Of a DNA stretch of 64,000 bases, positions 45,381-59,137 are shown in pieces. A program made the position numbers and the translations under genes. How positions within the stretch are numbered: the stretch's first letter is position 1; each line of letters opens with the position of its first letter. The notes under the pieces were generated by a model that was given only the letters and a program-made list of their open reading frames with translations, was not told the DNA's origin and made no database searches. Origin of the DNA: Curtobacterium salicis (GTDB taxonomy: Bacteria > Actinomycetota > Actinomycetes > Actinomycetales > Microbacteriaceae); NCBI RefSeq assembly GCF_011759505.1, contig NZ_JAAOYO010000004.1, forward strand, positions 62,001 through 126,000. The letters are read 5' to 3'.

Positions 45381-46322
45381 TCAGTCCCCGGCGGTCAGCA
45401 CCGCCTTCGGCACCCGGTGCAGGGTCACCGCTCCGACCGCGTCGAACGGGTGCAACGGGTCCGGAGCGCCGGACCCCGTCGGCCCGCCGAGCTTCGAGTC
45501 TCCGACCGCGCTGAGCACCGCGTAGGCGTCGTCCGCACTCCAACCGTGTTCGTCGACGAGGAAGGCGAACGCGTCCTCGTACCCGCGGCGGATGCTCTCC
45601 TGCACCGGCTCGCCCAGCCCGACGAACAGCCACTCGTCGGCGGTCTCGATACGCGGCGCCCGGAGTGCCGGGCCGCCCTTGACGACGTCGACGGAGACGA
45701 TCGCGGTGCCCTGCGCCTCGATCGCGACGAACGAGGACTCGCCCTCGGCCATGATCGCGTGGATGTCGCCGATCGACAGCAGCGCCCCGGGCACCCGGAC
45801 CGGCAGGTACACCGTCGAGCCGGGGCGGGCCTCGGTCACGTCCATGTTCCCGCCCTCGGCGTACGCCGGCATGATCGTGGAGTTCTCGCCCTCCGCCGGG
45901 GCGGTACCGATGCAGCCGATCATGGGCCGCACCGGGAAGGTGTGCCGGTCCGAGACCCGCACGACGCCGTCCTCGATCGGGCAGCGGCGGGTGAAGACCC
46001 GGTCGCCCATCACGTGCTGCAGTGCGCCGGAGCCGGGCAACGAGACGGACCAGCCGTGCGTCGTCAACTGGATGTCGTGGATCGTCACCGCGAGGGTGTC
46101 ACCAGGCTCCGCGCCCTCGACGTACACCGGGCCGGTGACCGGGTTGATCGGTGCCTGCAGCTGCGCCATGTCGTGGTGGACGTCGAGTTCGGCGTAGACC
46201 GCGTCGGTGGTCTCGAAACCGATCGTCTCGCCGGTGCCCGGGGTGACGCGCAGCACCGGTTCGCGGTCGGCGGTGTAGCCGGGGCGACCGAGGGTGTTCG
46301 GCAGGTGGTGGTCGGGGGTCAT
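45381..46322 (-). CDS. Acetamidase/formamidase family protein (amide operon)
   Basis: This 313-residue enzyme belongs to the FmdA_AmdA family, zinc amidases acting on short-chain amides. Recognisable blocks are DVHHDMAQLQAPINPVTGPVYVEGAEPGD, then MIGCIGTAPAEGENSTIMPAYAEGGNMDV (typical of the family) and LLSIGDIHAIMAEGESSFVAIEAQG. It ends the leftward operon and overlaps the permease stop by 4 bases. A paralogue occurs in the allantoin cluster at 53128-54198. The exact amide is unknown. Confidence 0.9.
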   Translation of the reverse strand: MTPDHHLPNTLGRPGYTADREPVLRVTPGTGETIGFETTDAVYAELDVHHDMAQLQAPINPVTGPVYVEGAEPGDTLAVTIHDIQLTTHGWSVSLPGSGALQHVMGDRVFTRRCPIEDGVVRVSDRHTFPVRPMIGCIGTAPAEGENSTIMPAYAEGGNMDVTEARPGSTVYLPVRVPGALLSIGDIHAIMAEGESSFVAIEAQGTAIVSVDVVKGGPALRAPRIETADEWLFVGLGEPVQESIRRGYEDAFAFLVDEHGWSADDAYAVLSAVGDSKLGGPTGSGAPDPLHPFDAVGAVTLHRVPKAVLTAGD

Positions 46323-47797
46323 CGGGGGTCCTTGTCGGTGCGGATGGGGGTGGCGGTCGAGCTGCCGGCGGGAGAGGCGGGCGCACCGGTCGGGTCGCCT
46401 TCGCCCAGCGTGCCCGGCTCCTCGGACCCGACCTCGGTGGAACGGCCGGTGGAGCGGTAGTACAGGAAGACGCCGGCGCCGACGATGAGCCAGATGATGC
46501 CGCCGACCTTCGCCTCGACCGCGGCGTTGAGCAGCACGTACCCGATGATGACGAACCCGATCAGCGGCACGACCAGGTGCAGCAGCCAGTTGCGCGACTT
46601 CCCCTTGACCATGTGGTGCACGAACACCGACACGTGCAGCAGCATGAAGCCGAACAGGGCACCGAAGTTCACCAGCGACGAGATCGTGTCGATCTGCCCG
46701 ACGAAGAACAGCACCAGGATCGCGGAGAGCACCGAGACGACGAGGATCGCGTTCTGCGGCACCAGGCGGCCGTTGAGCTTGTGCAGGAACGCGGGCAGCT
46801 GCCGGTCCCGGCTCATCGAGAACAGCAGGCGGCTCGTCGCGGCCTGCGCGGCCATCGCGTTCGCGATGCCGACGGCGAGCACGTTGACGGCGAAGAACGC
46901 CGTGGCCCAGCCGCTCGACGACGCCTGCTCGACGATCGTGAAGAAGGCGTTGCCCGCCTCACTGTCCGAGAACGAGTCGCGTCCGGCGGCCAGGGCGCTG
47001 GCGAGCCAGGTCTGCACGACGAACAGGAACGCGACGATGACGAGCGCCAGGATCATCGCGAGGCCGGCGCCGCCGCGGCGACCGGTCGATTCCTCCGACA
47101 GGGTCGAGATGCCGTCGAAGCCCAGGAAGCTCAACACCGCGATCGACAGTGCCGAGGCGATCAGCGGCGCCGACACCTTCGCCGGGTCGAACACCTGGGC
47201 AGTGCTGAAGGACGCTCCCGGCACCGTGCCACCGGTCAGGGCGACGATCGCGATGACGACGAAGACCACCACGAAGACGAGCTCGATGAGCAGGAAGATC
47301 CGGTTCGCCAGCTTCAGGGAGGACACCCCGGCCAGGTTGATCACCGTGTTGATCGCCACGAACACCAGCGCCCACAGCCACCGCGGGGTGCCCGGGAAGA
47401 TGCCGACCATGCTCTCGGCCGCGAACACGTAGAGCAGTGTCGGCACGAGCAGGTAGTCGAGCAGGATCGCCCAGCCGGCGAAGAAGCCCGCAGTCGGGTG
47501 GATGCCACGGCCGACGTAGGAGAACACGCTGCCGGCGAGGGGGATCGACTTCGCCATCTGCGCGTAGGCCAGGGCGGTGAAGATCATCGCGACGAGACCG
47601 ACCAGGTAGACCAGCGGCACCATGCCGGAGGACGCGTTGTAGACGGTGCCGAAGATCGCCCACGGGGCGATCGGCACCATGAAGACGAGCCCGTAGACGA
47701 GCAGGTCGGTGGTGGAGACGGAGCGTTGCAGCTCCTGTTTGTAGCCGTAGGCCTCGAGTTGCTGTTGTGCGGAGAGCTCGCTGTGCTGCTGCGACAT
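46319..47797 (-). CDS. APC family amino acid permease
   Basis: This 492-residue transporter has twelve spans, with the APC start TTDLLVYGLVFMVPIAPWAIFGTVYNASSGMVPLVY. Its position between two amidase-type genes suggests import of an amino acid, amino acid amide or related amine. A Pro/Ser-rich cytoplasmic C-terminus (about 35 residues) follows the last span. It is part of the 48753-45381 leftward operon. Confidence 0.92.
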   Translation of the reverse strand: MSQQHSELSAQQQLEAYGYKQELQRSVSTTDLLVYGLVFMVPIAPWAIFGTVYNASSGMVPLVYLVGLVAMIFTALAYAQMAKSIPLAGSVFSYVGRGIHPTAGFFAGWAILLDYLLVPTLLYVFAAESMVGIFPGTPRWLWALVFVAINTVINLAGVSSLKLANRIFLLIELVFVVVFVVIAIVALTGGTVPGASFSTAQVFDPAKVSAPLIASALSIAVLSFLGFDGISTLSEESTGRRGGAGLAMILALVIVAFLFVVQTWLASALAAGRDSFSDSEAGNAFFTIVEQASSSGWATAFFAVNVLAVGIANAMAAQAATSRLLFSMSRDRQLPAFLHKLNGRLVPQNAILVVSVLSAILVLFFVGQIDTISSLVNFGALFGFMLLHVSVFVHHMVKGKSRNWLLHLVVPLIGFVIIGYVLLNAAVEAKVGGIIWLIVGAGVFLYYRSTGRSTEVGSEEPGTLGEGDPTGAPASPAGSSTATPIRTDKDPR

Positions 47798-51698: not shown

Positions 51699-53135
51699 AT
51701 GCAGACGCCCACCACACCCGCTGCCGCCCCGGAGGACGTCTCGGCGACCGGGGTCGCGGGACCCGGCGCGACACCTGGCTCCCCCCGCACGCCGCAGCCC
51801 GTCGACCTCGTCCTCCGTGCCCGCCGGACCTGGGTCGACGGCGCCTTCCGGCCCGCCGCCGTCGTCGTCGGGGACGGCCGCGTGACCTCCGTCGAGCCGT
51901 TCGACGCCGAACTCGTCGCGTACCACGACGAGACCGTCCCGGACGGGCACGTCCTGCTGCCCGGACTCGTCGACACCCACGTCCACGTGAACGAACCCGG
52001 CCGCACCGAGTGGGAGGGCTTCGCCTCGGCCACCCGAGCAGCCGCCCTCGGGGGCGTGACGACGATCATCGACATGCCGCTGAACTCGATCCCGGCCACG
52101 GTGGACGTCCCCGCGCTGCGCGTCAAGCGTGCCAGCGCCACGGGACGCGTCGCGGTCGACGTCGGGTTCTGGGGCGGCGCGGTCCCCGACAACGCGGGAG
52201 CCCTCGCCGCGCTGCACGACGCCGGCGTCTTCGGGTTCAAGTGCTTCACCGCACCGTCCGGGGTCGACGAGTTCCCACACCTCGACCCGACCGAGCTGCG
52301 TGCTGCGATCGCCGAGGTCGCCGCCCTCGACGCGCTCCTCATCGTCCACGCCGAGGACCCGGACCACCTCGTCGACCACGACGCCCTCGGTCCCCGCTAC
52401 CAGGACTTCCTCGACACCCGACCCGTGCAGGCCGAACGGTCCGCCATCGCCCGCGTCGTCGACGGCGCCCGGGCGACCGGTGCCCGGGTGCACGTCCTCC
52501 ACCTCTCCGACGCCGGTGCACTCCCGATGATCCGGGCCGCGAAGGACGACGGCGTGCGCATCACGGTCGAGACCTGCCCGCACTACCTGGCATTCGAGTC
52601 CGGCTCGATCCCGGACGGCGCCACCGCGTACAAGTGCTGCCCGCCGATCCGCGACGACGCCAACCGGGACGCCCTCTGGACCGGGCTCCTCGACGGCACG
52701 ATCGACATGGTCGTCTCGGACCACTCGCCGTCGACCGCCGACCTCAAGGTCGACGACTGGGGGCTCGCCTGGGGCGGAATCGCCGGGCTGCAGGTCGGGT
52801 TCCGTGCGCTGTGGACCGAGGCCGGCCGTCGCGGACTGCCCCTCGACGCGGTCCTGCCCGCCGTCACGACCGGACCGGCGGCGCTCGCCGGGTTCGCCGA
52901 CCGCGGCCGGATCGCGCCGGGCGCGCTCGCGCACTTCGCCGTGTTCGACCCCGACGCCGAGTCCACGATCGACGTCGACACCCTGGCGCACCGGAACCCG
53001 GTGTCCGCGTTCGACGGGCTGCAGGTGCGCGGCCGGGTCACCCAGACCTGGCTGCGCGGCGAGCGGATCACCGGGACCACCGACGGGGTCACGACCGTCG
53101 ACGTCGTCGCCGGAGTGCTGGTCGACCGTGGCTGA
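51699..53135 (+). CDS. allB: Allantoinase
   Basis: This 478-residue amidohydrolase opens the hydantoin ring of allantoin to allantoate. The cyclic amidohydrolase features are present: metal-binding LPGLVDTHVHVNEPGR, the carbamylated-lysine region VFGFKCFT, IVHAEDPD, VHVLHLSDAG and VVSDHSPSTADLK. MPLNSIPATVD is characteristic of allantoinases as opposed to dihydroorotases. The N-terminal 35 residues are a Pro/Thr-rich extra. The next gene starts before its stop, so the operon is tightly coupled. Confidence 0.93.
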   Translation: MQTPTTPAAAPEDVSATGVAGPGATPGSPRTPQPVDLVLRARRTWVDGAFRPAAVVVGDGRVTSVEPFDAELVAYHDETVPDGHVLLPGLVDTHVHVNEPGRTEWEGFASATRAAALGGVTTIIDMPLNSIPATVDVPALRVKRASATGRVAVDVGFWGGAVPDNAGALAALHDAGVFGFKCFTAPSGVDEFPHLDPTELRAAIAEVAALDALLIVHAEDPDHLVDHDALGPRYQDFLDTRPVQAERSAIARVVDGARATGARVHVLHLSDAGALPMIRAAKDDGVRITVETCPHYLAFESGSIPDGATAYKCCPPIRDDANRDALWTGLLDGTIDMVVSDHSPSTADLKVDDWGLAWGGIAGLQVGFRALWTEAGRRGLPLDAVLPAVTTGPAALAGFADRGRIAPGALAHFAVFDPDAESTIDVDTLAHRNPVSAFDGLQVRGRVTQTWLRGERITGTTDGVTTVDVVAGVLVDRG

Positions 53136-54198
53136 GATGCTCACCGCCGCCGACGTGCACCTCGGTTCGACGCCCGACGACGTCCTGTGGGGTCGATTGC
53201 CGAGCCGCGAGGACGCCCCCGTCCGGACGGTCGCCCCGGGCACCGTGGTGACGATCGACACCGTCAGCCACGAGGGGCTGCTGGCCGACCAGGGTTCCGA
53301 CCCGGTGGCGTTCTTCGGTCGGCACGGCGTCGGGTCGGATGCGGTGCTCCAGGACGCGATCGACATCGTGCGCGACCTCGACCGGGACGCCGCCGACGGA
53401 CCGCACGTGGTGTCCCGGCCGATCGCCGTCGCCGGAGCCGGACCGGGCGACGTGGTGTCGGTGTCGGTCCTCGCGGCGGTTCCGCGTGTGCCGTACGGGG
53501 TCATCTCGAACCGGCACGGTCGCGGTGCGCTGCCGGGGGAGCTCCCGCGCGGCGACGGACCCGTCTCGGTGTTCGCCGACGTCGTGACCCGCGACGGTGT
53601 CGACCACGGCCGACTGCCCGTGGTGCAGGGCGGTCCGCGCGTGGTGACCTTCCCGCTCCGGCCGTTCCCCGGCATCGTCGGGATCACGGTCGACAGTGAC
53701 GTCCGACCGCACTCCGTCCCACCGGGGGCGCACGGCGGCAACGTCGACATCGCGCTGCTCACCGCGGGGTCGACGCTCCACCTGCCCGTGCAGGTCCCGG
53801 GAGCCGGCGTGTACGTCGGCGACCCGCACTTCGCCCAGGGTGACGGCGAGGTCGCCCTCACCGCGATGGAGGCCTCGCTGCGCCTGACCCTGCGCCTCGA
53901 CGTGGTCCCGCGCGCCACCGCGCTCCGGCGGTTCGGCGCCCTGGTCGGTCCGATCGCCGAGACGACCGACTTCCTCGTCCCGACCGGGATGGACGCCGAC
54001 CTCGACGAAGCCGTGCGCCGCTGCGTCCGGGCGGCGATCACGCTGCTCCGTGCACGGTGGGGCGTCGACGAGCACCTGGCGTACGCGTACCTCAGTGCGG
54101 CGACCGACTTCCGCATCTCGCAGGTCGTCGACCTCGTCTGCGGTGTGCACGCGACCATCCGCAAGGCGGACTTCGACGCGGTGACGACGTGCGGCTGA
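53128..54198 (+). CDS. Acetamidase/formamidase family protein (ureide operon)
   Basis: This 356-residue protein belongs to the FmdA_AmdA amidase family (GPGDVVSVSVLAAVPRVPYGVISNRHG; PPGAHGGNVDIALLTAGSTLHLPVQVPGAGVYVGDPHFAQGDGEVALTAMEASLRL). In this family GDxHxxQGDGE-like residues bind the metal. It sits between allantoinase and the HpxZ-amidase fusion. It is a candidate for hydrolysing an amide of the ureide pathway, such as oxamate or oxalurate; this is inference from context. The GTG overlaps the allantoinase stop by 8 bases; the ATG at 53137 is an alternative start. Confidence 0.85.
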   Translation: MAEMLTAADVHLGSTPDDVLWGRLPSREDAPVRTVAPGTVVTIDTVSHEGLLADQGSDPVAFFGRHGVGSDAVLQDAIDIVRDLDRDAADGPHVVSRPIAVAGAGPGDVVSVSVLAAVPRVPYGVISNRHGRGALPGELPRGDGPVSVFADVVTRDGVDHGRLPVVQGGPRVVTFPLRPFPGIVGITVDSDVRPHSVPPGAHGGNVDIALLTAGSTLHLPVQVPGAGVYVGDPHFAQGDGEVALTAMEASLRLTLRLDVVPRATALRRFGALVGPIAETTDFLVPTGMDADLDEAVRRCVRAAITLLRARWGVDEHLAYAYLSAATDFRISQVVDLVCGVHATIRKADFDAVTTCG

Positions 54199-55730
54199 CG
54201 GGGACGTGGCCCGCCGGCCTCGAGTCGGCGTTCCACCGCTACGAGGACGCCCTGGTGCGGGACGACACCGCGGTGCTCGACGCGCTGTTCGAACCCGGTC
54301 CGGGCACCCTGCGCGGCGACGGCGCGGGCCTGCTCCGCGGTCACGAGCAGATCAGCGCCTTCCGGTCAGCCCGGGGCGGCGTCGCCCCTCGGGTGCTGGT
54401 CGACGTCGACGTGCAGGTCCTCGGCCCCGATGCCGCGGTGGTCGTGGGCATCTCGCGGTTCGTCGACGGCGGGCGGGGGCTGCAGACGCAGCTCTGGTGT
54501 CGGACGGACGGCACGTGGCGGATCCGCACGGCACACGTCACCGGACGTGCGACGGCGTTCGACCGGTCCGTCTGGCGTGTGCTCGGCGACCCGCTCGTGC
54601 CGGGCGCAGGCGCAGGCTCCGCGCCGCTCGCCGGGGTCCGGGTGGCGGTGAAGGACCTCCTCGCGGTCCGCGGCCAGGTGATCGGTGCGGGGAACCCGAC
54701 GTGGCAGGCAGCAGCGGCCGTCGAGGACGAGCACGCTCCCGCGGTCGCGGTGCTCCTCGACGCCGGTGCTGCCGTCGTCGGGATCGCCCGGACCGACGAG
54801 TTCGCCTACGCGCTCGCCGGGCGGAACGCCCACTCCGGCACGACGCCCAACGGCGCGGCACCCGAGCGGATCGGCGGCGGTTCGACCTCCGGTCCGGCGT
54901 CGGCGGTGGCGCTCGGCCAGGCGGACCTCGGGCTGGGCACGGACACGGCGGGCAGCATCCGCGTCCCGGCGTCGTACCAGGGGCTCTGGGGACTGCGGAC
55001 GACCCACGGTGCGGTCCCGCGGGACGGTGTGCTGCCCCTGGCGCAGACCTTCGACACGGTCGGGTGGCTGACGCGGGGGCCCGAGCTGCTCCGCCGGGTC
55101 GTCGAGGTCACGCTCGGTGAGGCCGGTACCACGCCGACCGGCATCGACACCGCCGCGCTGCTGCTCAGCGAGACGCTGCTCGACGCCGCGGAGCCCGACA
55201 CACGGCGTGCGTTCGTCGACTGGACCGAGCGCACCGGTCGCGCACTGCACCCCGTCGCGCTCCCCGACCTGGACGAGCTCGCGGAGACGGTGCGGATCGT
55301 CCAGGCCGCCGAGGCCCACCGGAACCACGGCGCCTGGATCGCAGCGCATCCGGAGGCGCTCGGATCCGACGTGGCCGAGCGGTTCGCGGCAGCGGCGGCC
55401 GTGACCGTGGACCAGGAGGCGGTCGCGCGCGTCCGTCTCGTGGAACTCCGGACCGCCCTCCGACGGGCCGTCGGGAACGGGGTCCTGGCCCTCCCCACCG
55501 TGCCGGGACCCGCACCGAGCCGCACGGCCGACACCGCCGCCGTGCTCGTCACCCGTCGGGCCACGCTGCGGATGACGGCCGTCGCGGGGATCGGTGGGCT
55601 GCCCGCGATCAGCATCCCGGCGCTCGAGATCGCGGACGCTCCCGTCGGTGTCAGCCTCGTCGGACCGGTCGGGGCGGACCGGGCACTCGTCGACCTGGCC
55701 ACCGACCTCACCGCCGCAACACGCCTGTAA
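54189..55730 (+). CDS. Fusion of HpxZ/AtzH-like (DUF3225) domain to an amidase-signature enzyme
   Basis: This 513-residue protein joins two modules. Residues 1-125 form an SnoaL-like DUF3225 domain: AFHRYEDALVRDDTAVLDALF, GHEQISAFRSAR and TDGTWRIRTAHV, the HpxZ/AtzH pattern. Residues about 145-513 are an amidase-signature enzyme with its Ser-Ser-Lys triad visible: Lys155 in VAVKDLL, Ser234 in GGSTSGPAS and nucleophile Ser256 in GTDTAGSIRVP. In Klebsiella hpxY and hpxZ are separate genes of the oxalurate branch. The GTG start overlaps the upstream stop by 10 bases. Substrate by context: oxalurate or a carboxyurea-like intermediate. Confidence 0.85.
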   Translation: MRLTGTWPAGLESAFHRYEDALVRDDTAVLDALFEPGPGTLRGDGAGLLRGHEQISAFRSARGGVAPRVLVDVDVQVLGPDAAVVVGISRFVDGGRGLQTQLWCRTDGTWRIRTAHVTGRATAFDRSVWRVLGDPLVPGAGAGSAPLAGVRVAVKDLLAVRGQVIGAGNPTWQAAAAVEDEHAPAVAVLLDAGAAVVGIARTDEFAYALAGRNAHSGTTPNGAAPERIGGGSTSGPASAVALGQADLGLGTDTAGSIRVPASYQGLWGLRTTHGAVPRDGVLPLAQTFDTVGWLTRGPELLRRVVEVTLGEAGTTPTGIDTAALLLSETLLDAAEPDTRRAFVDWTERTGRALHPVALPDLDELAETVRIVQAAEAHRNHGAWIAAHPEALGSDVAERFAAAAAVTVDQEAVARVRLVELRTALRRAVGNGVLALPTVPGPAPSRTADTAAVLVTRRATLRMTAVAGIGGLPAISIPALEIADAPVGVSLVGPVGADRALVDLATDLTAATRL

Positions 55731-55742
55731 CCCGCGTTCCCG

Positions 55743-55748
55743 TAGCCT
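55743..55748 (+). promoter_or_regulatory. Possible internal -10 box TAGCCT before pucG
   Basis: TAGCCT lies 25 bases before the pucG ATG, in the only appreciable gap (43 bases) of the ureide operon. It could start a second transcript for pucG, allC and the regulator. No -35 element is clear. Confidence 0.35.
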
Positions 55749-55773
55749 CGCCCATGGAACGGAAGGACCGACC

Positions 55774-57030
55774 ATGCACCCCGTGAACCCGCCCGCACGC
55801 CTCCTGATGGGCCCCGGACCGATCGACGCCGACCCCCGCGTGCTCCGCGCCCTCGCCACGCCGCTCGTCGGGCAGTACGACCCGTGGATGACCGAGACGA
55901 TGAACCAGACGCAGGAGCTGTACCGCCGGGTGTTCGGCACCCGGAACGAGGCCACCGTCCTCGTCGACGGGACCTCGCGTGCCGGTATCGAAGCCGCCCT
56001 CGTCTCACTGCTCGCCCCCGGGGACAGCGTCCTCGTCCCGGTGTTCGGTCGGTTCGGGCACCTGCTCGCCGAGATCGCCGGACGAGCCGGAGCGACGGTC
56101 CACACGATCGAGACGGAGTGGGGTCAGGTGTTCCCGACCTCGGTCATCGAGGACGCGATCGTCCGGGTGCGGCCGAAGCTCCTCGCTGTGGTGCAGGGCG
56201 ACACCTCGACGACGATGAACCAGCCGCTCGACGAACTCGGAGCGATCTGCGAGCGACACGGCGTGCTCTTCTACACGGACGTCACCGCCTCCGTCGGCGG
56301 GAACCCGCTCGAGGTCGACGCCTGGGGCATCGACGCCGTCAGCGCCGGACTGCAGAAGTGCCTCGGCGGCCCCTCCGGCAGCGCCCCGCTGTCCCTCTCA
56401 CCGCGGGCGGTCGCGGTCCTCGACACTCGTCGGAGTGTCGAGGCGGGCATCCGCGAGCCCGGTGACGACGTGTCCGAGCACCCGATCCAGTCGAACTACC
56501 TCGACCTGGCGATGATCATCGACTACTGGGGCCCCCGCCGCCTCAACCACCACACCGAAGCCGCGTCGATGCTCTACGCCGCGAACGAGTGCGCCCGGAT
56601 CCTGCTCGAGGAAGGCCGCGACGCCGTGGTCGAACGGCACGCCCTCGCCGGCCGCGCGATGCTCGAGGGTGTCCGCGGGCTCGGACTGACCGTCTTCGGC
56701 GACGTCAGCCACAAGATGCACAACGTCGTCGCCGTCGAGATCCCCGACGAGGTCCACGGCGACGCGGTCCGGTCCGCCATGCTCGAGGACCACGGGATCG
56801 AGATCGGCACCTCGTTCGGCCCCCTGCACGGTCGAGTGTGGCGGATCGGCACGATGGGCTACAACGCCCGCAAGGACACCGTCGTGACGACCCTGTCCGC
56901 CCTCGAACAGTCGCTGCGCCGCGGGGGGAAGTCGGTGCCGCAGGGCGGTGGTGTCGACGCAGCCCTCGACGTCTACGCAGGACTGAGCGCCGAGCTCGAC
57001 GCGCAGCTCGACGGGGCGGTGCCGGCGTGA
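55774..57030 (+). CDS. pucG: (S)-ureidoglycine-glyoxylate aminotransferase
   Basis: This 418-residue fold-type I PLP aminotransferase has LMGPGPIDADPRVLRALATPLVGQYDPWM and VLVDGTSRAGIEAAL. VVQGDTSTTMNQPL, FYTDVTASVGGNPLEVD and the PLP lysine in AGLQKCLGGPSGSAPLSL follow. The GQYDP motif and the allantoin-gene context point to PucG, over the related alanine-glyoxylate transaminase. It transfers the amino group of ureidoglycine to glyoxylate, giving glycine and oxalurate. GGAAGG precedes the ATG. Its stop overlaps the allC start. Confidence 0.9.
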   Translation: MHPVNPPARLLMGPGPIDADPRVLRALATPLVGQYDPWMTETMNQTQELYRRVFGTRNEATVLVDGTSRAGIEAALVSLLAPGDSVLVPVFGRFGHLLAEIAGRAGATVHTIETEWGQVFPTSVIEDAIVRVRPKLLAVVQGDTSTTMNQPLDELGAICERHGVLFYTDVTASVGGNPLEVDAWGIDAVSAGLQKCLGGPSGSAPLSLSPRAVAVLDTRRSVEAGIREPGDDVSEHPIQSNYLDLAMIIDYWGPRRLNHHTEAASMLYAANECARILLEEGRDAVVERHALAGRAMLEGVRGLGLTVFGDVSHKMHNVVAVEIPDEVHGDAVRSAMLEDHGIEIGTSFGPLHGRVWRIGTMGYNARKDTVVTTLSALEQSLRRGGKSVPQGGGVDAALDVYAGLSAELDAQLDGAVPA

Positions 57031-58313
57031 GTGCGGCCGTGCAGGTCCCCGTCGCCAGTGCCTCGGCCCGTGCGTCCGCCGACCGCATCGTCGCCCGCTG
57101 CGACGAACTCGCGGCGGTCAGCGAGACCACCGACCACATCACCCGCGTCTACCTGTCGCCCGAGCACGCCCGCGCGAACGCGGTCGTCCGGACCTGGATG
57201 GCGGACGCCGGCCTCGACACCTGGCAGGACGCCGCCGGCAACCTGCACGGGCGCAGCCGTCACACCGCGGCGGGCGCCCCGGTCCTGTTGCTCGGCTCCC
57301 ACCTCGACACCGTGGTGGACGCCGGCCGCTACGACGGCGTGGTCGGTGTCCTCATGGCGATCGAGGTCGCCGCCCGCCTGGGTCCGGACCACGCCCCGCT
57401 GCCGTTCGCGCTCGAGGTCATCGCGTTCTCCGACGAGGAGGGCACCCGGTTCGGCAAGGCCCTGCTCGGCTCCTCCGCGGTCGCCGGCGTGTGGGACGAG
57501 TCGTGGTGGGACCTCCACGACGGCGACGGCACCACCCTCCGTGCCGCCTTCACGTCCTTCGGCCTCGACCCGGAACAGGTCGGGCAGGCCGCCGTCGACC
57601 CCGCCGCCCTCGTCGGCTACCTCGAAGCGCACATCGAGCAGGGGCCGTACCTCGAGCACGCCGGACAGGCCCTCGGCGTCGTCACCAGCATCGCGAGCGC
57701 CCGGCGGTTCACCGTGCGGGCGGTCGGCGAAGCGCGGCACGCCGGCGGCACCCCGTACGAGCGGCGCCACGACGCCCTGCTCGCCGCCGCCGAGGCCGCC
57801 CTCGCCGTCGAGCGGATCTGCCGGGCGGAGCAGCACATCGGCACGGTCGGCACGATGTCCGTCGAGCCCGGAGCGGTCAACGTCGTCCCCGGCCTGGCCA
57901 CGTTCGCGGTCGACCTCCGCGGCGAGTTCGACGACGGCCGCGACCGGGTGTGGGACGAGATCGCCGACGCGTTCCGGGCGATCGGAGCGCGGCGTGGCGT
58001 CGACGTCACCCCGACCGAGATCCACCGGGCGCCCGCCGTCTTCTGCGCCCCGCACCTGATGGACGCCGTCCGCTCGGGCATCGTCAGCACCGGCGAACCG
58101 GCACCGCTCGAGCTGTTCTCGCGCGCGGGGCACGACGCGATGTCGCTCGGTCTGGTGACCGACGTCGCGATGCTGTTCCTCCGCAACCCGGACGGCATCA
58201 GCCACCACCCGGACGAGTTCGTCTCCGCGGCGGACGTCGCCCTCGGGATCGACGCACTCGCCGGAGCAGTCGAGCACCTCGCCCGCACGACGACGAACGG
58301 TGCCGACTCATGA
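57027..58313 (+). CDS. allC: Allantoate amidohydrolase (M20 family)
   Basis: This 428-residue M20 metal-dependent amidohydrolase has GSHLDTVVDAGRYDGVVG, FSDEEGTRFG and GYLEAHIEQGPYLE. Substrate-loop and dimer-domain blocks include GTVGTMSVEPGAVNVVPG, SRAGHDAMSLG and NPDGISHHPDE. These fit the allantoate amidohydrolase/N-carbamoyl amino acid hydrolase group. The neighbours allB and pucG favour allantoate, giving ureidoglycine, CO2 and ammonia. The GTG overlaps the pucG stop (GTGA). Confidence 0.92.
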   Translation: MSAAVQVPVASASARASADRIVARCDELAAVSETTDHITRVYLSPEHARANAVVRTWMADAGLDTWQDAAGNLHGRSRHTAAGAPVLLLGSHLDTVVDAGRYDGVVGVLMAIEVAARLGPDHAPLPFALEVIAFSDEEGTRFGKALLGSSAVAGVWDESWWDLHDGDGTTLRAAFTSFGLDPEQVGQAAVDPAALVGYLEAHIEQGPYLEHAGQALGVVTSIASARRFTVRAVGEARHAGGTPYERRHDALLAAAEAALAVERICRAEQHIGTVGTMSVEPGAVNVVPGLATFAVDLRGEFDDGRDRVWDEIADAFRAIGARRGVDVTPTEIHRAPAVFCAPHLMDAVRSGIVSTGEPAPLELFSRAGHDAMSLGLVTDVAMLFLRNPDGISHHPDEFVSAADVALGIDALAGAVEHLARTTTNGADS

Positions 58314-59137
58314 GCGTCCCCGACGTCCGCGGACGCATCGACTCGGTCTGGGAGCGACTGTCACCGGCCGAGCGTCGGGTGGCCGCGATGATCCGGCACG
58401 ACCCGGAGCTCCTGCTCGTCGGGACGTCGGCGCAGCTGGCCGTCGAGTCCGGCACCTCGAAGGCGACGGTCTCGCGGCTCGTCCGTTCGCTCGGGTTCCA
58501 GGACGCCGCCGAGGTCCGTCAGAACCTCATGTCCGCGCGGGGGACCGGTCTGCCCTGGGCCGCCGAGGACGCCGCCCACGTCGACCAGCGGGCGGTGGAG
58601 GCGCGTAACCTCGACGCGGCGTTCGCCTCCCTGGCCCGCGCCGACCGTCCGCGCCTCGCCCGACGCATCGTCCGCGCACGCCGGGTCCTGGTCCTCGGCG
58701 AGCGCGGCGCGTACCCGATCGCGCTGCAGCTCCGTGCCCAGCTCGCGCAGGTGCGTCCCGACGTCCGGGTCGGGCCGGCGCCCGGGCAGCGTCTGGGGGA
58801 GGAGGTCGCCGACCTCGACCGCCGGGACCTCGTGGTCATCGTCACGGTCCGCCGGCACGCCGCCGGGGTCGACCGGGTCGTCCGGCACTGCGTGGCGACC
58901 GGGGCGGACGTCGTCGTCATCGGGGACCCGACGGCCGCGGTGATCGCCGCTCCCGCGACCACCGCGGTGCTCTGCCCGGTCGACTCACCGTCGGCGTTCG
59001 ACTCGTTGGCGGCGCTGTTCGCGGTCGTCGCGGCGATCACGAACGACGTGTACGAGGCGTCCGGGCCGTCGGGCCGGACCCGGGTGGAAGCGGTGGCGAG
59101 CGCCTACGACACGCTCGGCGAACTCGCCGGCCCCTGA
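58310..59137 (+). CDS. MurR/RpiR family transcriptional regulator
   Basis: This 275-residue regulator has an N-terminal RpiR helix-turn-helix (ELLLVGTSAQLAVESGTSKATVSRLVRSLGF). The C-terminal SIS domain covers about residues 120-260 (RRVLVLGERGAYPIALQLRAQLAQVRPDVRVG; CVATGADVVVIGDP). RpiR-type regulators such as HpxU control purine and ureide genes in other bacteria. It closes the ureide operon with an ATGA overlap, so it is probably its regulator. Its end overlaps the convergent SRPBCC gene by 34 bases. Confidence 0.92.
   Translation: MSVPDVRGRIDSVWERLSPAERRVAAMIRHDPELLLVGTSAQLAVESGTSKATVSRLVRSLGFQDAAEVRQNLMSARGTGLPWAAEDAAHVDQRAVEARNLDAAFASLARADRPRLARRIVRARRVLVLGERGAYPIALQLRAQLAQVRPDVRVGPAPGQRLGEEVADLDRRDLVVIVTVRRHAAGVDRVVRHCVATGADVVVIGDPTAAVIAAPATTAVLCPVDSPSAFDSLAALFAVVAAITNDVYEASGPSGRTRVEAVASAYDTLGELAGP

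Follow-up and report, generated by a model that had tools for sequence, protein, structure and literature searches.

A candidate oxalurate-to-oxalate module, encoded by an fmdA-like gene and an AtzH–amidase fusion, in an allantoin operon of Curtobacterium salicis

Introduction

The question raised by the locus described here is how oxalurate, the expected product of an allantoin operon of Curtobacterium salicis, would be broken down. The DNA analysed (the window; 64,000 nucleotides, contig NZ_JAAOYO010000004.1, C4:62001-126000 of a 3.49 Mb genome in 7 contigs) carries six genes, allB, an fmdA-like gene, an AtzH–amidase fusion, pucG, allC and rpiR. The fate of oxalurate has been worked out for transcarbamylation of the E. 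coli type and in part for Klebsiella. On the basis of sequence comparison it is proposed here that the fused amidase deaminates oxalurate, that the AtzH domain decarboxylates the product to oxamate, and that the FmdA-like protein converts oxamate to oxalate; a rough probability of 0.57 is assigned to this whole route. If it is correct, two orphan enzyme subfamilies (one of acetamidase/formamidase type, one of amidase/AtzH-like type) would be assigned, urate-to-oxalate nitrogen recovery would be completed in many actinobacteria, a direct assay for the role of an AtzH domain outside triazine breakdown would be provided, and actinobacteria would have a distinct way to regain purine nitrogen, through two amide-cutting enzymes to which textbook pathways give no such role.

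Operon structure and gene assignment

Open reading frames were assigned as follows, with start codons picked by eye.

51699..53135, + strand: allB, allantoinase (allantoin to allantoate); TIGR03178 513 bits, cut-off 358; Amidohydro_1
53128..54198, + strand: fmdA-like gene, FmdA_AmdA family, proposed oxamate amidohydrolase; PF03069 108.6 bits
54189..55730, + strand: AtzH–amidase fusion, proposed oxalurate deaminase and N-carboxyoxamate decarboxylase; PF11533 74.3 bits, PF01425 176.2 bits
55774..57030, + strand: pucG, ureidoglycine–glyoxylate aminotransferase (products oxalurate and glycine); nearest solved relatives 3nnk and 3isl; Aminotran_5
57027..58313, + strand: allC, allantoate amidohydrolase (allantoate to ureidoglycine); NF006775 493 bits, cut-off 479; Peptidase_M20
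58310..59137, + strand: rpiR-family regulator; HTH_6 and SIS

All six genes run in one direction and overlap at four of the five junctions (by 8, 10, 4 and 4 bases), the sole gap of 43 bases lying directly before pucG. The original prediction of a co-directional six-gene operon with overlaps at all but one junction was confirmed by the gene calls and domains. FmdA, the AtzH–amidase protein and AllC were given GTG starts; with an alternative ATG start of FmdA at 53137, the overlap with allB is lost. The operon is probably regulated by RpiR. Beyond the window, the contig also carries a uricase gene.

PucG scored 562 bits against 3nnk and 414 bits against 3isl (PucG), followed by 271 bits against 1vjo; because it is closest to proven ureidoglycine–glyoxylate aminotransferases, its expected products are oxalurate and glycine. 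AllC stayed below the E. coli-type AllC profile TIGR03176 (191 of 598 bits).

The AtzH–amidase fusion and the proposed route

The two domains of the predicted DUF3225–amidase fusion (PF11533 and PF01425) were both found inside a single frame of 513 residues.

54216..54542, + strand: AtzH-like domain, residues 10-118, placed by alignment with 6bjt
54618..55688, + strand: amidase-signature domain, residues 144-500, nearest fold malonamidase E2

The AtzH-like domain passed the PF11533 cut-off of 27 with its 74.3 bits. Passages of PMC6219798 name nine pocket residues of AtzH, infer that it decarboxylates 1,3-dicarboxyurea and describe Tyr22 and Arg46 as important. In the 6bjt alignment these catalytic residues correspond to Tyr18 and Arg42 of the fusion; eight of the nine pocket residues are identical (Y18, R42, R59, R62, R68, R90, Q99 and Q101), Phe94 being replaced by Ile88, and seven of the nine were invariant across 17 aligned sequences. 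The proposed catalytic triad of the amidase domain (Lys155, Ser232, Ser256) was likewise invariant in 17 aligned sequences and, judged by spacing, presumably matches K62, S131 and S155 of malonamidase E2. The structure model of the fusion had a predicted local distance difference test (pLDDT) value of 77, and the best named relatives of the protein come from Curtobacterium herbarum (80-82 % identity).

The overall products of the operon from allantoin would be oxalate, glycine, ammonia and CO2. Allantoin would be opened to allantoate by AllB, AllC would give ureidoglycine, and PucG would convert ureidoglycine and glyoxylate to oxalurate and glycine, steps that are established for the respective families and assumed for these proteins. 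The amidase domain may then release ammonia from the terminal amide of oxalurate, which would give N-carboxyoxamate. This unstable compound would be split by the fused AtzH domain into CO2 and oxamate, comparable to the proposed action of AtzH on 1,3-dicarboxyurea, and hydrolysis of oxamate by FmdA would give oxalate and ammonia. Oxalurate bears a terminal ureido amide of the kind on which AtzE-like deamination, and then decarboxylation by AtzH, would act.

Conservation of gene order

Locus counts refer to the best 80 of 416 confirmed stretches, the named loci encoding the fusion; bit thresholds were chosen in this analysis, with at least 100 bits for a relative of RpiR. The order allB–fmdA–atzH/amidase–pucG–allC on one strand was found in 63 of the 80 loci, so the arrangement is not due to chance. 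Conservation of gene order, named in the original prediction as a check, therefore held for the five structural genes, and only 14 loci kept the order with all six genes including a related rpiR. Gene by gene, FmdA was present in 76, PucG in 73, AllC in 70 and RpiR in 15 loci.

Seven of the 80 loci were without pucG; the contig ends just past the fusion in four of these (L070, L075, L076, L086) but not in the other three (L045, L048, L091). Four operons were without fmdA (L041, L071, L083, L090). In three of the four genomes an FmdA of 65-66 % identity was located elsewhere, next to GntR-like and DUF1275 genes in the one annotated case (L131); the Clavibacter genome of L041 has a single FmdA match, of 53 % identity. 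In G031 and G105, which belong to one genus, an FmdA–AtzH–amidase locus is separate from allB–pucG–allC–rpiR.

FmdA, AtzH and amidase share a single frame of 920 residues in G098 (best stretches: FmdA 248-391, AtzH 413-521, Amidase 544-905), and in G035 a linker of about 70 residues joins FmdA to AtzH–amidase within an uninterrupted frame.

Co-occurrence across genomes

Co-occurrence was counted in 150 genomes of the family to which the window belongs (PucG E ≤ 1e-80; amidase E < 1e-60, a threshold set here; FmdA E ≤ 1e-60 and at least 60 % identity). PucG was found in 42 genomes, the amidase in 45 and an FmdA ortholog in 37. The amidase was present in all 42 pucG genomes and pucG in all 37 genomes with an FmdA ortholog (Fisher tests, 5e-34 and 5e-30, kinship ignored). 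FmdA matches of 52-55 % identity (G034, G044, G056, G101) were excluded from the ortholog count. The FmdA of G070 (54.7 %) was missed by the ortholog search and read later in L144; with it, 38 of the 42 pucG genomes would carry FmdA.

A phylum sample of 296 genomes (own genome counted; amidase E ≤ 1e-45, FmdA E ≤ 1e-60) gave ten genomes with the amidase, seven with PucG and eight with FmdA. Four of the seven PucG matches (G280, G323, G342, G418; 41-44 % identity) were too distant to be taken as PucG; the two that were read (L170, L171) adjoin, by eye, citrate-lyase/CoA-ligase and glycolate-oxidase-like genes. An FmdA match (44-59 %) occurred without the amidase in G360, G372 and G403, and an amidase match without FmdA in G187, G286, G299, G355 and G425. 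The pairing of FmdA and amidase is strict among close relatives only.

FmdA, amidase and pucG were found together in G370 and G218. In both genomes the FmdA–amidase pair lies inside a urate cluster in which the remaining genes cover the steps up to oxalurate, and only the pair lacks an assigned role. AllB, AllC and PucG of these clusters were assigned by BLAST and the remaining genes by eye, with Pfam support for uricase, HIUase and OHCU decarboxylase in G370 and for a xanthine dehydrogenase-type molybdoenzyme in G218.

Order of steps

The best-surviving alternative, considered unlikely, is that the steps are swapped: FmdA would deaminate oxalurate, AtzH would decarboxylate, and the fused amidase would hydrolyse oxamate. 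AtzH and amidase would still perform consecutive steps, so the fusion fits this order too. Its main point in favour is that the fusion has its best fold match in malonamidase E2, an enzyme that hydrolyses malonamate. The genomes in which the partner FmdA was not found speak for the amidase-first order. By ortholog search and reading of the loci these were four of the 42 pucG genomes (G034, G040, G109, G123), and all four retain the amidase alongside pucG. In G034 the AtzH domain was undetectable as well; G123 has a locus in which an intact fusion adjoins a truncated FmdA remnant that lacks the motif GDPHFAQGDGE. The partner FmdA is likely absent from the four genomes. An amidase dependent on the product of FmdA would have no substrate there and would idle. 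If the amidase acts on oxalurate, as in the preferred order, FmdA-less strains would still gain one ammonia and be left with oxamate, which passages of PMC11326118 also describe as the product of the E. coli enzyme. Retention of the amidase without its partner favours the amidase-first order weakly.

Several observations weigh against the proposed route. Oxamate resembles malonamate, with which the malonamidase E2 fold was solved, and the amidase might accordingly be the enzyme that acts on oxamate; in addition, the absence of FmdA from the four genomes is less than certain, because the same search missed FmdA in G070. The amidase occurred with neither pucG nor FmdA found in G039, G066 and G139 of the family sample. 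G206 and G441 carry FmdA and amidase, and a genome-wide search found no pucG in them. AllC scored higher against the N-carbamoyl-amino-acid hydrolase 3n5f than against AllC structures. An AtzH domain was not detectable beside the amidase in L137, L138, L139, L140, L144, L147, L156 (family) and L165, and in G218 an internal gap deletes the region of Arg42, the Tyr being kept. The AtzH step is therefore not always needed; its loss would fit the spontaneous decarboxylation stated for related compounds in the portion of PMC6219798 consulted. Finally, the FmdA–amidase pair occurs in loci without pucG, beside other ureide or heterocycle genes.

Other genomic contexts of the pair

These last loci underlie a second alternative, also judged improbable: the pair would be a general scavenging module for amides or N-carbamoyl amides, whose main substrate is not oxalurate and whose place in the allantoin operon reflects the similarity of the acids formed in several ureide pathways. 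It is favoured by pucG-less loci with a hydantoinase (L048), Amidohydro_3 proteins (L091, L165), luciferase-like monooxygenases (L159, L166) and a FAD_binding_4 oxidase (L045), and by the amidase tree (subsampled, 52 rows; context labels assigned in this analysis per locus, not per genome), in which at least five changes between pucG and no-pucG contexts fall on starred branches. Against it stand the family counts, in which pucG accompanies the FmdA ortholog in 37 of 37 genomes and the amidase in 42 of 45.

The simplest reading of the varied contexts is that several pathways converge on a common end product, either oxalurate or a near analogue. We consider the odds about even that FmdA and AtzH–amidase form a portable actinobacterial oxalurate-to-oxalate module, a third route beside AllFGH and HpxWXYZ, which includes a new FmdA-family oxamate amidohydrolase and has also been plugged into other cyclic-ureide or oxidised-heterocycle pathways ending in oxalurate. 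Candidate sources of oxalurate in such loci would be parabanate, through ring opening by the L048 hydantoinase, and ureidoglycolate, through oxidation by the L045 FAD enzyme. The distinct gram-positive route of the original prediction can be upheld for actinobacteria in genomic terms, as a candidate; the pair itself is found outside the allantoin route as well.

Individual loci were read as follows. In L048 (51-11515, Curtobacterium sp. ZW137) a second FmdA–AtzH–amidase copy follows genes for Hydantoinase_B, an ABC transporter of peptide type (assigned in part by eye) with its solute-binding protein, and a dihydropyrimidinase that exceeds the TIGR02033 cut-off; a cyclic imide or hydantoin route is possible. 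The FAD_binding_4 oxidase of L045 (75-1367) adjoins FmdA/AtzH–amidase where the contig begins, and that of L155 (13834-15153) lies about 5 kb from an AtzH–amidase; these oxidases might convert ureidoglycolate to oxalurate. In L091 and L165 the pair is accompanied by an Amidohydro_3 protein and by a GntR-like gene (by eye in L091), and luciferase-like monooxygenases lie near it in L159 and L166. L166 (5249-17218) contains a luciferase-like monooxygenase, an amidohydrolase, creatininase, isochorismatase, a cupin (by eye), FmdA and AtzH–amidase, with FmdA and amidase about 8 kb apart and the creatininase and isochorismatase families between them; it is possibly a degradation pathway for an unknown heterocycle. 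In L167 (7222-10008) an unfused amidase and an AtzH-like gene are separated by an isochorismatase gene, and a cupin-like gene (by eye) adjoins.

The FmdA-like protein

Two features were located within FmdA.

53704..53706, + strand: Arg193, characteristic of the partner clade; Arg in 92 of 94 clade rows and 1 of 8 outside, the groups being defined in this analysis
53818..53850, + strand: motif GDPHFAQGDGE, residues 231-241; invariant in 12 aligned partners except F235 (Y once)

That the gene encodes an ordinary formamidase or acetamidase hitch-hiking in the operon is very improbable. The protein is a PF03069 member, and its 16 fold matches at E ≤ 0.001 were all acetamidase/formamidase entries, including one that bears the title gamma lactamase (structure model pLDDT 84). 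However, it reached 72 of the 500 bits of the formamidase equivalog NF045496, below the cut-off, and its G098 counterpart is fused to AtzH–amidase. Moreover, the FmdA proteins partnered with the amidase formed a single clade (47 of 65 rows; Shimodaira–Hasegawa approximate likelihood ratio test 99; subsampled tree, 52 different rows; the tool warned of long branches outside the clade), separate from the two other FmdA-family proteins of the genome and from the FmdA of G360 (56 %). The suggestion that the acetamidase-family enzyme replaces HpxW survives as a candidate assignment on sequence grounds.

A second FmdA-family gene (313 residues) is encoded in the window (45381-47797, - strand), where it overlaps an amino-acid permease gene; its product lies outside the AtzH-partner clade and reached 64 of 500 bits against the formamidase cut-off. 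Within the stretches fetched from plasmid records of distant FmdA relatives no amidase like that of the operon was found; one of them (L161) has two annotated amidase genes 5-7 kb away.

Comparison with known systems

The Klebsiella Hpx route resembles the proposed one in its PucG-type oxalurate source, its downstream amidase and AtzH-family protein, and its separate oxamate hydrolase. It differs in that the amidase of the Curtobacterium operon belongs to another subfamily and is fused to AtzH, in that an FmdA-family protein stands in place of the GGT-family HpxW, and in that the partner HpxX was not seen within the operon. The fusion and FmdA would replace HpxY/HpxZ and HpxW by largely non-orthologous enzymes. 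The claim that hpxZ and hpxY are one protein here was not supported: the N-terminal domain stayed below the HpxZ equivalog NF033625 (64.9 against 135), and the amidase far below the AtzE/HpxY cut-offs (TIGR02715, 144.6 against 425.75; NF006631, 155.1 against 461), its nearest profile being PRK08310 (378, cut-off 391). A separate HpxW, which the original prediction had named as evidence against it, did not turn up in the genome: the single GGT-family protein scored 644 bits against 6j3a and 75 and 41 bits against two chains of 5hft, which we take to be HpxW, and this candidate was dropped. The least credible alternative, an operon that is a fused Klebsiella HpxXYZ and orthologous throughout, has in its favour the similarity of the N-terminal domain to HpxZ and AtzH and was dropped because the amidase is contradicted by the AtzE/HpxY profile scores, the HpxZ cut-off is missed and no HpxW-like GGT protein was found, the AtzG-like profile (PF13318, HpxX) being uninformative, without a match in the own genome and in every control genome alike.

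AtzE/AtzG/AtzH of Pseudomonas sp. ADP (cyanuric acid) shares the AtzH-family domain with catalytic Tyr and Arg, the amidase-signature partner and the chemical logic of deamination followed by decarboxylation; substrate, fusion and amidase subfamily differ, and an AtzG-like subunit was not seen in the operon. E. coli AllFGH oxamic transcarbamylase with the carbamate kinase AllK likewise acts on oxalurate in the final stage of allantoin breakdown but yields carbamoyl phosphate and oxamate; this route was dropped, as AllG (PF06545) was not found in the own genome, the E. coli control being positive. Malonamidase E2 of Bradyrhizobium japonicum is the nearest solved fold, with Lys-Ser-Ser matched by spacing and a substrate resembling oxamate; it is without an AtzH domain and has 24-25 % identity to the operon amidase. 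At the level of titles and abstract starts, subscription papers being outside the scope, no proposal of FmdA or the AtzH–amidase fusion for oxalurate and no link of acetamidase/formamidase with oxamate was found in the literature; passages of PMC12625717, PMC5270733 and PMC4016543 contained no FmdA/AtzH–amidase proposal for oxalurate.

On a plasmid of Caballeronia, hpxZ directly adjoins the separate gene of a related amidase (41 %) in the same order, which is likely the unfused form of the fusion. In L160 (6305-9101), a Caballeronia plasmid, a DUF1116 (AllG-like) gene, hpxZ and the amidase gene adjoin in one direction near xanthine dehydrogenase-type genes, possibly a proteobacterial mixed oxalurate cluster.

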